From the IMG/VR virus record IMGVR_UViG_3300020442_003560, positions 1 to 31,018 of that record: a stretch of 31,018 bases of DNA; one strand, given 5' to 3'. A program made the translations under genes and the position numbers. Positions 6,296-31,018 of the stretch are shown here, piece by piece. Each line of letters starts with the position of its first letter. The stretch's first letter is position 1. The notes beneath the pieces are model-generated. The model worked only from the letters and a program-made list of their open reading frames with translations, was not told where the DNA came from and did not search any database. This DNA is from a virus.

Positions 6296-6596
6296 TAGGT
6301 GTTGGGTTGACGAATCCAACATGGGAGTGACTGAATCAAACTTGCTGGCAATGGTCTAGTTAAGGTGATGAGTCAGAGGTGGTGCTCGCTGTGGTAACAC
6401 AGAACTGTTTAACCAGACAGGACTCATGCAGTACAGTAAAAATTTACTTATGTAGAAATGCCCTGTACTTGTAGGTATACATTATTCCTACCTCCCACAC
6501 CCACCACAAAGAAACGTTGGGCAGACGGAACTGGGAGACTGGTTCGCACGTAAGACCCAACACAATCCAACTAAATCCAAAACAATCTAAAGTAAT
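6296..6596 (+). promoter_or_regulatory. Long structured 5' leader of gp32, with a pseudoknot candidate
   Basis: About 300 bases without a gene. Helices seen by eye: 6301-6320 (8 bp, loop GACG); 6389-6402 (CTGTG-GTAA-CACAG, GNRA loop); 6431-6436 with 6463-6468; 6471-6475 with 6487-6491; 6516-6521 with 6556-6561. Two further helices cross each other: 6354-6363 with 6409-6418 (10 positions, one mismatch) and 6368-6374 with 6421-6427 (7 bp, perfect), a pseudoknot. T4 gp32 represses its own mRNA through a pseudoknot in its leader, so an autoregulatory operator is a fair inference. There is no Shine-Dalgarno before ATG 6597. Confidence 0.6.
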
Positions 6597-27711: not shown

Positions 27712-28179
27712 ATGCTAGATGATTTTTGTACAAAACTAATAGGATTCTACGATAATTGGAATCAAGCGTCTACAAATCCAGCAAAATGGGCACACTGCAA
27801 GATCCGATGGGAGAGGATCAGTGATACTGAATTGAAATCAAAACAGTGGTATCATTATATGGGTGAAGAAAATCCATATAGAAAGAGGTGGCATCGTGTC
27901 AAACAAGAAAATGATGTTATAATTGTAGAGAACTGGTCTCCAGATTGGGGTGGACATGAACCATGCTGCGACATGAAGTTTCGCTACGAAAACGACTTTT
28001 GGATCGGAGAAGTGGCGACAGATGCTTGCATCATCAGAGGAGGTGTGGTAAAATCTTTAGTACAGTTCAATGGTCAAATCTACAAGAGCAGAGATCAAGG
28101 ATGGAAAAAAGACAAAGTTATTTGGGGTAGTGACGTAATCTACGAATTCAAAAAATCTGACAAACCTATTGCTGTATAA
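27712..28179 (+). CDS. cpeT: CpeT/CpcT-like chromophore lyase family protein, 155 aa
   Basis: ATG 27712 (MLDDFCTKLIGFYDNWNQAS) is preferred to a TTG 48 bases upstream, because family members start with this FC-x-x-(I/L)-G segment. Other family-like parts are NPAKWAHCKIRWERISD, QWYHYMGEENPYRKRWHRV, PCCDMKFRYENDFWIGEV and WGSDVIYEF. CpeT-type proteins form a ten-strand barrel and attach phycoerythrobilin to phycoerythrin in the host; the phage forms bind bilin but their lyase activity is uncertain. Its nearness to ho1 fits a bilin-related role. The stop overlaps the next ATG (TAATG). Confidence 0.75.
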   Translation: MLDDFCTKLIGFYDNWNQASTNPAKWAHCKIRWERISDTELKSKQWYHYMGEENPYRKRWHRVKQENDVIIVENWSPDWGGHEPCCDMKFRYENDFWIGEVATDACIIRGGVVKSLVQFNGQIYKSRDQGWKKDKVIWGSDVIYEFKKSDKPIAV

Positions 28180-28655
28180 TGCCTGAATACTACAAGCCAA
28201 AAAAACGCTACAACATGAATGGGACAGGTAGTCCTTACAAATCTACAAAGGATCCTTGGAAGTTACTTGTTTGCCGAGCAAGAGGTAACGCAAAACCAGG
28301 TCATCTAAAAGGTAATGGTATTGCAAGAGAAGAAGCATTGCCATTGGATATCACAGCACAGAGTCTACGAGATCAATACAACAAGCAAAATGGCAAGTGT
28401 TATTGGTCTGGTTTCCCTATTGATATTAATGGACTTCTGGAGCGTAGTAATCCGTTGGCACCAAGTCTAGATCGTCTGGATGATAACAAAGGTTATACTC
28501 AAGATAACGTAGTCTTAACAATACGATTATTTAATTTAGGAAGACAAACCTGTCCAGCAGACAAATTTCGCAAAATCTGTGATAAAATAGAGAGACATTA
28601 CAAGGGAGAACAAGTCGTTGCATCACTATCCTCATTCATGGAAGATAGAGACTAA
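28179..28655 (+). CDS. HNH/endonuclease-like protein, 158 aa
   Basis: The product has a basic N-terminus (MPEYYKPKKRYNMNGTGSPY, KSTKDPWKLLVCRARGNAKP), then ITAQSLRDQYNKQNGKCYWS with a CxxS-type treble-clef start, PLAPSLDRLDDNKGYTQDNV and VLTIRLFNLGRQT. The block (P-S-x-D-R-(I/L)-D-x-x-K-G-Y-T-x-x-N-V) is typical of phage-encoded HNH-related nucleases of the free-standing homing type, but a full set of metal-binding cysteines is missing and the first histidine is replaced, so catalysis is uncertain. It lies 4 bases before tRNA-Leu; a second HNH gene is on the other side of that tRNA. Confidence 0.6.
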   Translation: MPEYYKPKKRYNMNGTGSPYKSTKDPWKLLVCRARGNAKPGHLKGNGIAREEALPLDITAQSLRDQYNKQNGKCYWSGFPIDINGLLERSNPLAPSLDRLDDNKGYTQDNVVLTIRLFNLGRQTCPADKFRKICDKIERHYKGEQVVASLSSFMEDRD

Positions 28656-28659
28656 TAAT

Positions 28660-28744
28660 GGGAGTGTGGTGGAATAGGTAGACACACCAGACTTAAAATC
28701 TGTTGACCATTACGGTCGTGGGGGTTCAAGTCCCCCCACTCCTA
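28660..28744 (+). tRNA. tRNA-Leu (anticodon TAA)
   Basis: Acceptor GGGAGTG (28660-28666) with CACTCCT (28737-28743); anticodon arm CCAGA-CTTAAAA-TCTGT; long variable arm (class II, as for Leu); T arm GGGGG-TTCAAGT-CCCCC. It reads UUA, a codon common in this A+T-rich phage. Confidence 0.93.
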
Positions 28745-28750
28745 TTGGTT

Positions 28751-28777: not shown

Positions 28778-29131
28778 ATGCCAATCAAAGACAAGGAGAA
28801 GAATAGAGAGTATCAACGTGAATGGGCACGTAAGAATGGTAAGACTAAGAGGAGAAATCAAAGGGGACCAGTGAACCGACAAAAGTTAGTTGATGACGCA
28901 AAATCTAAACCTTGTGTTGTCTGTCGTGTTCAATATCCTGTATGTTGTATGGATCTACATCACGCAGACAACAGTGCTAAAACCGTTAGTATCACAGGGT
29001 TGACAAGGACTGGTCCTTATGATAAACTTAAAGACGAAGTTGATAAATGTGTTCCATTATGTGCCAATTGTCATCGTATGGTTCACGCAGGTCTTAAACA
29101 GTTACCTGATTTAATTTTATTGCCACTCTAG
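28778..29131 (+). CDS. HNH endonuclease, 117 aa
   Basis: A compact HNH enzyme: basic N-terminal half (KDKEKNREYQREWARKNGKT, KRRNQRGPVNRQK), then the zinc knuckle CVVC (Cys46, Cys49), MDLHHAD with His61-His62 as the catalytic pair, and LCANCHRMVHAG with Cys95, Cys98, His99 and His103. All metal and catalytic residues are present. Free-standing HNH genes are mobile and often insert beside tRNA genes; this one lies between tRNA-Leu and tRNA-Thr, and its stop codon overlaps the first 10 bases of tRNA-Thr. It may be a homing endonuclease that spreads the RNA cluster. Confidence 0.83.
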   Translation: MPIKDKEKNREYQREWARKNGKTKRRNQRGPVNRQKLVDDAKSKPCVVCRVQYPVCCMDLHHADNSAKTVSITGLTRTGPYDKLKDEVDKCVPLCANCHRMVHAGLKQLPDLILLPL

Positions 29132-29195
29132 CTCAGCTGGATAGAGCAACGCTTTTGTAAAGCGTAGGTCGTCGGTTCAAGTCCGACGAGTGGCT
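29122..29195 (+). tRNA. tRNA-Thr (anticodon TGT)
   Basis: Acceptor GCCACTC (29122-29128) with GAGTGGC (29188-29194); anticodon arm ACGCT-TTTGTAA-AGCGT; T arm GTCGG-TTCAAGT-CCGAC. The 5' end overlaps the HNH gene's stop codon. CCA is not encoded. Confidence 0.94.
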
Positions 29196-29197
29196 TT

Positions 29198-29265
29198 CCC
29201 TCTTCTGAGGGAATAGGTGACTTTACGAATAGCTTCGGACAGGGGTTCAATTCCCCTCACCTCCA
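29198..29265 (+). ncRNA. ssrA: tmRNA acceptor piece (3' half of a permuted tmRNA)
   Basis: Contains a hairpin CCCTC-TTCT-GAGGG (29198-29211), a linker, the T arm AGGGG-TTCAATT-CCCCT, and the 3' acceptor strand CACCTCC plus discriminator A (29258-29265). It has no D arm and no anticodon, so it is not a tRNA. CACCTCC pairs with GGGGGTG at 29345-29351, including a G.U at position 3, the alanine identity element. Marine Synechococcus and Prochlorococcus have two-piece tmRNA with this order (acceptor half before coding half). The mature 5' end is uncertain, perhaps near 29212. Confidence 0.88.
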
Positions 29266-29269
29266 CTGA

Positions 29270-29341
29270 TCCCAAGTAGCTCAGTGGCAGAGCAGGTGAC
29301 TGTTAATCACTCGGTCGCTGGTTCAAATCCAGCCTTGGGAG
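29270..29341 (+). tRNA. tRNA-Asn (anticodon GTT), inside the tmRNA intervening segment
   Basis: Acceptor TCCCAAG (29270-29276) with CTTGGGA (29334-29340); D arm with AGCTCAGTGGCAGAGC; anticodon arm GGTGA-CTGTTAA-TCACT; T arm GCTGG-TTCAAAT-CCAGC. It lies 4 bases after the acceptor piece and 3 bases before the coding piece. Confidence 0.95.
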
Positions 29342-29344
29342 TAT

Positions 29345-29553
29345 GGGGGTGCCATGGTTTTGACGGGGTATTACGATTGTGACTGAAACCTGCTTGGATA
29401 AGCAAACAACAGATGCAAACACATCTACACCTGCTGCGAATAACATCGTAGCATTCTCCCGTCAGGAAGCCCTTGTTGCTGCCTGACCCTTAGGGGAGAT
29501 GGGGGTTAGACTAGCCTTCTCACCCAAGTAGTCCATGGGGGTGTAATGCCCCC
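29345..29553 (+). ncRNA. ssrA: tmRNA coding piece (5' half of a permuted tmRNA)
   Basis: Begins with the universal tmRNA 5' sequence GGGGGTG-CCATGG-TTTTGACGGGG (acceptor strand and the D-loop-like GGTTTTGACGGG). Hairpins GCTT-GGAT-AAGC and AGATG-CAAAC-ACATCT follow, then the tag reading frame (29436-29486) and a structured tail with GGTTAGACTAGCC and a last hairpin GGGGG-TGTAATG-CCCCC (29537-29553). With the acceptor piece at 29198-29265 it would form a trans-translation RNA that frees stalled ribosomes and tags unfinished proteins, using the host or phage SmpB. The mature 3' end is estimated. Confidence 0.9.
29436..29486 (+). other. tmRNA tag reading frame, ANNIVAFSRQEALVAA
   Basis: Resume codon GCG at 29436 (GCT at 29433 is an alternative) gives ANNIVAFSRQEALVAA followed by TGA. 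It resembles tags of marine cyanobacteria (ANNIV-F-RQ-A-VAA) and keeps the VAA end that ClpXP-type proteases recognise. Confidence 0.85.
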
Positions 29554-29557
29554 TTAT

Positions 29558-29631
29558 GGCTCAGTAGCTCAGTGGATCAGAGCAACTGCCTTCTAAGCAG
29601 TCGGTCGTAGGTTCAAATCCTACCTGAGTCG
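29558..29631 (+). tRNA. tRNA-Arg (anticodon TCT)
   Basis: Acceptor GGCTCAG (29558-29564) with CTGAGTC (29624-29630, one G.U); anticodon arm ACTGC-CTTCTAA-GCAGT; T arm GTAGG-TTCAAAT-CCTAC. It starts 4 bases after the last tmRNA hairpin, so RNase P cutting here may set the tmRNA 3' end. Reads AGA. Confidence 0.94.
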
Positions 29632-29679
29632 TTTTCAACTAAGGTTCAAATCACAACGGTTGTAAAACCCTTAGAACCC

Positions 29680-29745: not shown

Positions 29746-31018
29746 ATGGCTTTGACAAGACTTGACAACCTTATTAGTTCAAAAACTGGTAAGTATTTGT
29801 ATGTGTCTCCTGATGACTTTAACGCAAGTGATGAACTTAATAATAGAGGTAATTCACCTGTAAGACCGTTTAAGTCTATTCAGAGAGCATTCCTAGAGAT
29901 CTCAAGATTCTCTTATTTACCTGGTGGACCTGATAACGATAGGTTTGATCAATTCACTGTCATGGTGATGCCTGGTAATCACTATATTGATAACAGACCA
30001 GGTCTTGTAGATGTAGATGGTATTGATGAGTTTGCTTTTGACCAAGCACTAAGTGAGTGGGCAGATAATTCAAACTTAGATATTAAGGATCCTAACAACG
30101 TCCTCTATAAGTTTAACAATACTGAGGGTGGTGCTATCATTCCTCGTGGTTCTTCTATCATTGGTTATGACCTACGTAGAACCATTGTCCGTCCTCTATA
30201 TGTTCCTGATCCTGCTGATCCACTAGAAAAGCGTTCTGCTATCTTCAACGTAACTGGTGGTTGTTATTTCTGGCAGTTTACCATCAAGGATGGTGATCTA
30301 GAACCTTCTTCACCATTATATTCATCTACTGATGGTATTGGTAAAGTTTATAGTCAGACTCCTGCTGATCCATCTGACTGGGGATCTGCTCAACTAACTA
30401 TTCCTAACTTCTCACACCACAAGCTAACTGTATTTGAATATGCAGATAAGCAAGAGTTGGGTCTATACTATAGAAAGGTTGCTAAGGCATTCTCTCAGTA
30501 TCAACCAAACATTGATGATCCAAACGAGTTTGGTGCAAGAATTCAAGAGACCAGAATTGTTGGTCCGCTATCTGACATTCGTTCTATTGAAAGTATCAGA
30601 GTTGATGATAGAACAACAGAACCAACGTTACCAGGATCTACTACAAGGGTAACAGTTACAACAAAGGTAGATCACGCATATTTTAGAAATCAATTTGTTG
30701 CCATTGAAGACAATGGTTTAGATGATGAGATTGATGGAACTTTCTCCATTGATCAAATTGATGAAACAAATGGAAAGGTATTCTCATACCTAATTGAAGG
30801 CACGGTTACTAATCTAGGCAGTAACACTAATCTTATTAGTGGTACAACTTATACCGTAAACTCTAGTCCTGTAGCACTAGGACAGAATGCTAACGTCAAG
30901 GCAGAAGTTGACTCTGTTGAGTCTGCATCTCCATACGTATTCAACTGCTCCATCAGATCTACTTGGGGTATTTGTGGTATCTGGGCAAATGGTTTGAAAG
31001 CCACTGGTTTCAAATCAA
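29746..31018 (+). CDS. Large virion structural protein (tail fibre/baseplate type), N-terminal 424 residues
   Basis: The frame is open from ATG 29746 to the window end, so the 3' part is missing. AGGA lies 10 bases before the ATG. The N-terminus MALTRLDNLISSKTGKYLYV, then SPDDFNASDELNNRGNSPVR and PFKSIQRAFLEISRFSYLPG, matches the start of a large structural protein family of T4-like cyanophages (the xRPFKTIQRA-xEA-RFSY motif). GGAIIPRGSSIIGYDLRRTI and ATPYVFNCSIRSTWGICGIW-like segments suggest a parallel beta-helix, as in tail spikes. It is probably a fibre or baseplate-periphery protein; the exact role is unknown. Confidence 0.85.
   Translation, partial: MALTRLDNLISSKTGKYLYVSPDDFNASDELNNRGNSPVRPFKSIQRAFLEISRFSYLPGGPDNDRFDQFTVMVMPGNHYIDNRPGLVDVDGIDEFAFDQALSEWADNSNLDIKDPNNVLYKFNNTEGGAIIPRGSSIIGYDLRRTIVRPLYVPDPADPLEKRSAIFNVTGGCYFWQFTIKDGDLEPSSPLYSSTDGIGKVYSQTPADPSDWGSAQLTIPNFSHHKLTVFEYADKQELGLYYRKVAKAFSQYQPNIDDPNEFGARIQETRIVGPLSDIRSIESIRVDDRTTEPTLPGSTTRVTVTTKVDHAYFRNQFVAIEDNGLDDEIDGTFSIDQIDETNGKVFSYLIEGTVTNLGSNTNLISGTTYTVNSSPVALGQNANVKAEVDSVESASPYVFNCSIRSTWGICGIWANGLKATGFKS

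Follow-up and report, generated by a model that had tools for sequence, protein, structure and literature searches.

Can the intervening segment (IVS) of a permuted tmRNA gene be a complete tRNA gene, with both RNAs left intact? This question is raised by a locus in a 31,018-base IMG/VR virus record, analysed here at its whole length (the window) and itself a fragment. Judged by its gene content, the window is from a T4-like marine cyanophage. It carries genes for T4-type tail, baseplate and ssDNA-binding proteins as well as heme oxygenase, CpeT-like and cyanophage OMP genes, and its nucleotide matches to Synechococcus myoviruses are partial. Near the right end lies an RNA array, in the order tRNA-Leu, HNH ORF, tRNA-Thr, permuted tmRNA with internal tRNA-Asn, and tRNA-Arg, with all features on the + strand. 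Directly upstream of the array, also on the + strand, is a 158-aa endonuclease-like ORF at 28179-28655 (PHROG 3322, endonuclease VII/HNH-like; phrog_3322 5e-28, phrog_1035 (endonuclease VII) 1.4e-10). tRNA-Leu(TAA) at 28659-28745 (ARAGORN; Rfam 57.8 bits) is followed by a 117-aa HNH endonuclease ORF at 28778-29131 (phrog_3106 4e-26, phrog_2255 3e-23), which overlaps the 5' end of tRNA-Thr(TGT) at 29122-29195 (ARAGORN). tRNA-Thr abuts the 5' end of the tmRNA, and tRNA-Arg(TCT) at 29557-29632 (ARAGORN; Rfam 71.8 bits) starts about 5 nt past the tmRNA 3' hairpin. A TATAAATA motif around 29699, seen by eye and resembling a T4-type late promoter, stands between the array and a tail-fibre gene at 29746. 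Elsewhere in the window there is a strong manA RNA motif at 6300-6501 (RF01745, 160 bits), upstream of an ssDNA-binding protein gene, and a Glutamine-II riboswitch-like match at 2274-2330 that is barely over the cut-off (33.9 vs 33).

An earlier note on this DNA had proposed a permuted two-piece tmRNA whose intervening segment is a complete tRNA-Asn, and this proposal was confirmed. ARAGORN reported a tmRNA of its starred, permuted class with the tag ANTSTPAANNIVAFSRQEALVAA and a tRNA-Asn(gtt) inside it at 29270-29341. Covariance models were then applied, and the two halves were scored as tmRNA: RF01851 (cyano_tmRNA) matched 29179-29552 at 159 bits (E 3.7e-44; gathering cut-off 70 bits), with a 72-nt insert at the position of the tRNA. 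The same model gave an E-value of 8.7e-48 in a search of the record itself, and RF04321 (tmRNA_permuted) matched the unit at 90.6 bits. Scored alone as a tRNA with RF00005, the insert reached 70.8 bits (E 2.4e-16; cut-off 29 bits).

The acceptor piece lies upstream of the coding piece. The acceptor (3') piece at 29198-29265 (Rfam and fold) consists of a 5' hairpin CCCTC..GAGGG, the T arm, the strand CACCTCC (29258-29264) and the discriminator A29265; CCA is not encoded. The 79-nt IVS (29266-29344) comprises a 5' spacer CTGA (29266-29269), the complete 72-nt tRNA-Asn(GTT) (29270-29341) and a 3' spacer TAT (29342-29344), so the whole tRNA gene falls inside the IVS and shares the strand of the tmRNA. 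The coding (5') piece at 29345-29552 (Rfam) starts with GGGGGTG and has a GGGGG/CCCCC hairpin at its end. Its tag reading frame, ANTSTPAANNIVAFSRQEALVAA followed by a stop, occupies 29415-29486 (ARAGORN coding part 242-313 of 29174-29577), is in frame and has AA at the end. The 7-bp acceptor pairing with a G3.U70 wobble described in the earlier note was also found, as GGGGGTG (29345-29351) and CACCTCC pair at 7/7 positions with G3.U70. The two acceptor stems comprise 14 pairs, and in a thermodynamic fold of 29198-29556 every one of them has a probability of about 0.98 or more; the loop that the tmRNA acceptor stem closes thus holds the tRNA as a domain of its own. On these sequence features the nested arrangement in the window is real: the IVS of a permuted tmRNA contains a complete tRNA-Asn.

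Filled sites of this kind are not confined to the window. Pattern scans and targeted scans of IMG/VR found a complete tRNA in the same tmRNA site in 13 further contigs from 13 separate metagenomes, which shows that the window is not an assembly accident. The nested tRNA is tRNA-Asn in three contigs (L014, L136 and L137; three distinct tRNA sequences including that of the window), tRNA-Tyr in seven (L046, L056, L065, L072, L108, L143 and L144) and tRNA-Ala(TGC) in three (L135, L141 and L142), the last group in another permuted tmRNA type (RF04321, 67-70 bits). The spacers flanking the nested tRNAs are 2-5 nt on each side, except downstream in the tRNA-Ala group (11-13 nt). Since filled cases are known from metagenomic contigs only, it might be argued that the window is an assembly chimera, or that the tRNA was called by chance. 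This explanation can hardly be right, because the 79-nt IVS of L014, an independent contig with different flanks, is identical to that of the window, 12 more filled contigs come from other metagenomes, and the E-value of the tRNA itself is far from what chance would give. The composite pattern occurred in 0/100 shuffled sequences.

A tag-pattern scan of IMG/VR, followed by parsing, returned at least 64 contigs with both tmRNA pieces. Among the matches listed, the IVS is nearly always 4-7 nt long (e.g. CTCAT, TTCAC), as it is in most of the related phages, compared with 79 nt in the window, and at least 5 of these contigs have a complete tRNA-Tyr(GTA) in an IVS of 88-89 nt. The comparison with related cyanophages proposed in the earlier note shows an empty site in close relatives, among them the isolates S-CAM1 and S-CAM3. 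The arrangement recurs: related and unrelated phage tmRNAs carry an Asn, Tyr or Ala tRNA gene at the site. No two-tRNA insert was found with a pattern written for it. L005-L013, also with IVSs of 77-90 nt, contain no tRNA and were discarded. No filled site was seen in GTDB genomes with a scan pattern that was too strict (it demands a GACG end and misses the GACA of the tRNA-Tyr group) and is therefore non-exhaustive for cellular genomes; the sole match of the genome scan (L134) is an ordinary tRNA array with no tmRNA. Nor did a filled site appear in phage isolates among the matches of nested queries in distant searches of 50,697 phage records.

Both RNAs appear to be intact in the filled loci. 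In each of the 13 nested units that were tabulated, the outer tmRNA acceptor stem has 7/7 pairs and G3.U70. The tags of the filled forms are in frame and open. Between the window and L014, the coding piece is identical at 133/147 positions and the tag differs in length by an in-frame 18 nt. In the 10 distinct nested tRNAs, the acceptor, anticodon and T stems retain all 17 of their pairs; both partners have changed in a compensatory way at 7 pair positions among the Asn tRNAs, at 4 among the Tyr tRNAs and at 5 among the Ala tRNAs. These kept pairs, compensatory changes and open tags argue against a dead tmRNA as well as a dead tRNA. A dead tmRNA would be expected if the inserted tRNA had killed it, leaving a pseudogene in a tRNA array in which only tRNA-Asn functions. 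Phage tRNA clusters do change rapidly, phages are not known to need tmRNA, and with the insertion the precursor loop grows from 5 nt to 79 nt. However, filled forms that have mutually diverged show no damage to the tag frames, the 7/7 acceptor pairing with G3.U70, the T arm or the 3' hairpins, and filled forms score 100-163 bits against RF01851, whose cut-off is 70. We regard the pseudogene explanation as very unlikely.

A second rival explanation concerns the tRNA rather than the tmRNA. The fold of tRNA-Asn might be kept only as a processing guide that recruits RNase P to the IVS, with no decoding of Asn codons, and tRNA-like remnants in the IVS of other permuted phage tmRNAs (L140; L138, L148 and L149) would fit this idea. 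Nevertheless, the nested tRNAs have normal 7-nt anticodon loops with the anticodons GTT, GTA and TGC, their anticodon stems show compensatory changes, and the empty 5-nt sites that form the majority among the matches listed are evidently sufficient. A role as guide alone is for these reasons highly improbable. As for the remnants, all in permuted phage tmRNAs of another type, the IVS at L140:10755-10853 (+) has a tRNA fold (44.8 bits) whose anticodon loop is 16 nt long. L148 and L149 (122-nt IVS), together with L138, have T-arm-like hairpins beside acceptor-like helices. These structures may be decayed nested tRNAs.

Close relatives that differ in the state of the site show how it has changed. 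The coding piece of L108, which carries tRNA-Tyr, is identical at 148/150 positions to that of the empty L037, and the coding piece of L143, also with tRNA-Tyr, is identical at 147/147 positions to that of the empty L043. L056 and L064 differ at 4/150 positions of the coding piece, and one has tRNA-Tyr while the other is empty. In the empty members of these pairs the IVS is 5-6 nt. S-CAM1 and S-CAM3, with a 5-nt IVS, are 88-91% identical to the filled L072, with the alignment gap at the tRNA.

A tree was built from 60 distinct cyano-type tmRNAs (49 empty, 6 with Tyr, 4 with Asn and 1 with a long IVS), with the IVS left out. The filled and empty states require about 8 changes on this tree, of which the well-supported branches call for at least 6 (3 or more in Tyr and 3 or more in Asn). 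The data reject a single clade of the tRNA-Tyr forms (p-AU 2.8e-5) and likewise one of the tRNA-Asn forms (p-AU 4.7e-4). It is important to note that these changes are gains or losses alike and are no proof of many insertions, and that recombination blurs the count of independent insertions. The IVSs of L108 and L072 are identical at 86/88 positions, whereas their coding pieces agree at only 109/137. In addition, the acceptor strand of L108 and L143 is CACTTCC, as in the L072 group, whereas that of their empty sisters is CACCTCC. The near-identical IVS in divergent tmRNAs and the shared strand suggest that homologous exchange probably carried the filled IVS, together with its flank, from one tmRNA lineage to another. 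Given the gains and losses on the tree and near-identical inserts in clearly different tmRNAs, the sequences identify the IVS as a tolerated site through which tRNA genes enter, leave and are exchanged. A separate cyano-type permuted tmRNA, nearest to L073, lies at L120:5774-6336 (-); its 220-nt IVS is made of repeated AT-rich hairpin-like units and contains no tRNA.

The reading that we consider very probable is that the IVS of a phage permuted tmRNA has been filled by a tRNA-Asn gene, that the precursor would be cut by host enzymes to give tRNA-Asn and a two-piece tmRNA, and that the IVS would offer tRNA genes a free landing site. In this model the array would be transcribed as one RNA, and the two tmRNA pieces would fold across the tRNA. 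Host RNase P would cut at 29270, which would free the 5' end of tRNA-Asn and leave CTGA on the acceptor piece, and at 29345, which would make the 5' end of the coding piece and leave TAT on the tRNA. Host tRNase Z or exonucleases would then remove CTGA and TAT to give 3' ends at A29265 and G29341. Neither 3' end has an encoded CCA, so the host CCA-adding enzyme would have to supply it. The predicted products are a functional tRNA-Asn and a two-piece tmRNA charged with alanine, and recombination within phage tRNA clusters would fill the IVS, empty it and swap its contents. For permuted tmRNA precursors, RNase P and tRNase Z are the probable cutting enzymes (PMC3985003), and we infer that the same enzymes suffice for tRNA and tmRNA, with a separate cut per end.

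This scheme departs in part from the earlier note, in which the enzymes that mature tRNA-Asn also create both inner tmRNA ends. That tRNA enzymes make these ends is the natural reading, but maturing tRNA-Asn alone would not set them exactly because spacers of 4 nt and 3 nt lie between. The further idea that a single processing event gives all three RNAs needs correction: four ends would each need a cut of their own, and these cuts include RNase P cleavage at G29345 and trimming at A29265. The outer tRNA-Thr and tRNA-Arg had been suggested to set the outer ends, and both do abut the tmRNA ends. They are not required, however, as L137 has no tRNA-Thr upstream and L072, L046 and L065 lack tRNA-Thr but have tRNA-Arg.

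A stronger proposal is that nesting is selected and not just tolerated, with RNase P cuts on tRNA and tmRNA interdependent in one folded precursor and their outputs coupled during infection. We think this unlikely. Were it true, a tRNA that acts against host anticodon nucleases or serves phage codons would be made in a fixed ratio to tmRNA, and former nested tRNAs would have left the tRNA-like remnants of other phage IVSs behind as processing signals.

Comparison with known systems indicates which part of the arrangement is new. The window unit shares with the cyanobacterial-type permuted tmRNA (RF01851) the order of acceptor piece, IVS and coding piece, the 7-bp G3.U70 stem, the AANNIV.FSR tag core and the 3' hairpins; it differs in its 79-nt IVS, which is taken up by a whole tRNA gene, against about a dozen nt in the Rfam consensus. 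Two-piece tmRNAs are also described in marine myophages, in Melnitz and its marine relatives, with no nested tRNA reported in the parts of that account considered here (PMC9004378). In algae and archaea, circularly permuted tRNA genes likewise have an IVS between acceptor ends, presumably removed by RNase P and tRNase Z, but their RNAs are religated by way of a circle, and their IVS, of 1-74 nt, is discarded (PMC3978253). The statement in the earlier note that no description of this nesting was known is nearly right, with one exception. A 2025 tmRNA database paper, covering 97,179 sequences of which 79 are from phages, remarks in one sentence on an intact tRNA-Ala in the IVS of a permuted tmRNA as a 'unique feature' of GCA-2688965 sp002688965.2, a nominally archaeal MAG (PMC11915505). 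That case matches the window in having an intact tRNA gene within a permuted tmRNA IVS and differs in its tRNA (Ala, not Asn) and its nominally archaeal source. The viral contigs L135, L141 and L142 carry the published combination of permuted tmRNA and tRNA-Ala, and our guess is that the published case is a (misbinned) phage sequence. No other description of a tRNA nested in a permuted tmRNA was found among the open-access papers searched. It is the recurrent variant of the permuted tmRNA gene form that is new; the permuted phage tmRNA itself was already known.

The break in a permuted tmRNA is in this respect a usable gene-insertion site, in which one RNA gene lies inside another on the same strand. 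Both can stay intact, since the two pieces of the outer RNA are never ligated. What had been a one-line curiosity becomes a recurrent phage arrangement with natural filled and empty pairs, which make the processing order, the coupling of the RNAs and the consequences of tmRNA splitting experimentally approachable.

The endonuclease genes that adjoin the array are possibly homing endonucleases of the tRNA region. Together with the HNH gene of L014, a close homologue of the 117-aa ORF in the same neighbourhood, they recall SegB of T4, the homing endonuclease behind the inheritance of that phage's tRNA region (PMC2988022). A causal role of such genes in moving tRNAs into the IVS would be speculation by analogy. 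It is not claimed here, since a simple motif test found no such endonuclease gene within 2 kb in the tRNA-Tyr contigs. In a 205-kb phage contig, a GOLLD RNA (227 bits) was observed at L149:752-1213 (-), in an array of more than 20 tRNAs and a permuted tmRNA.

Nested genes also bear on annotation. Weaker tmRNA hits that overlapped strong tRNAs were rejected in the database paper (PMC11915505), and annotation pipelines that apply such a rule will miss nested cases. Permuted tmRNAs are unannotated as tmRNA in the isolates L002 (PV340856.1), S-CAM3 and S-CAM1 (L003/L004) and S-SSM7 (L146), and in several of these records a 'hypothetical protein' is called across the permuted tmRNA.
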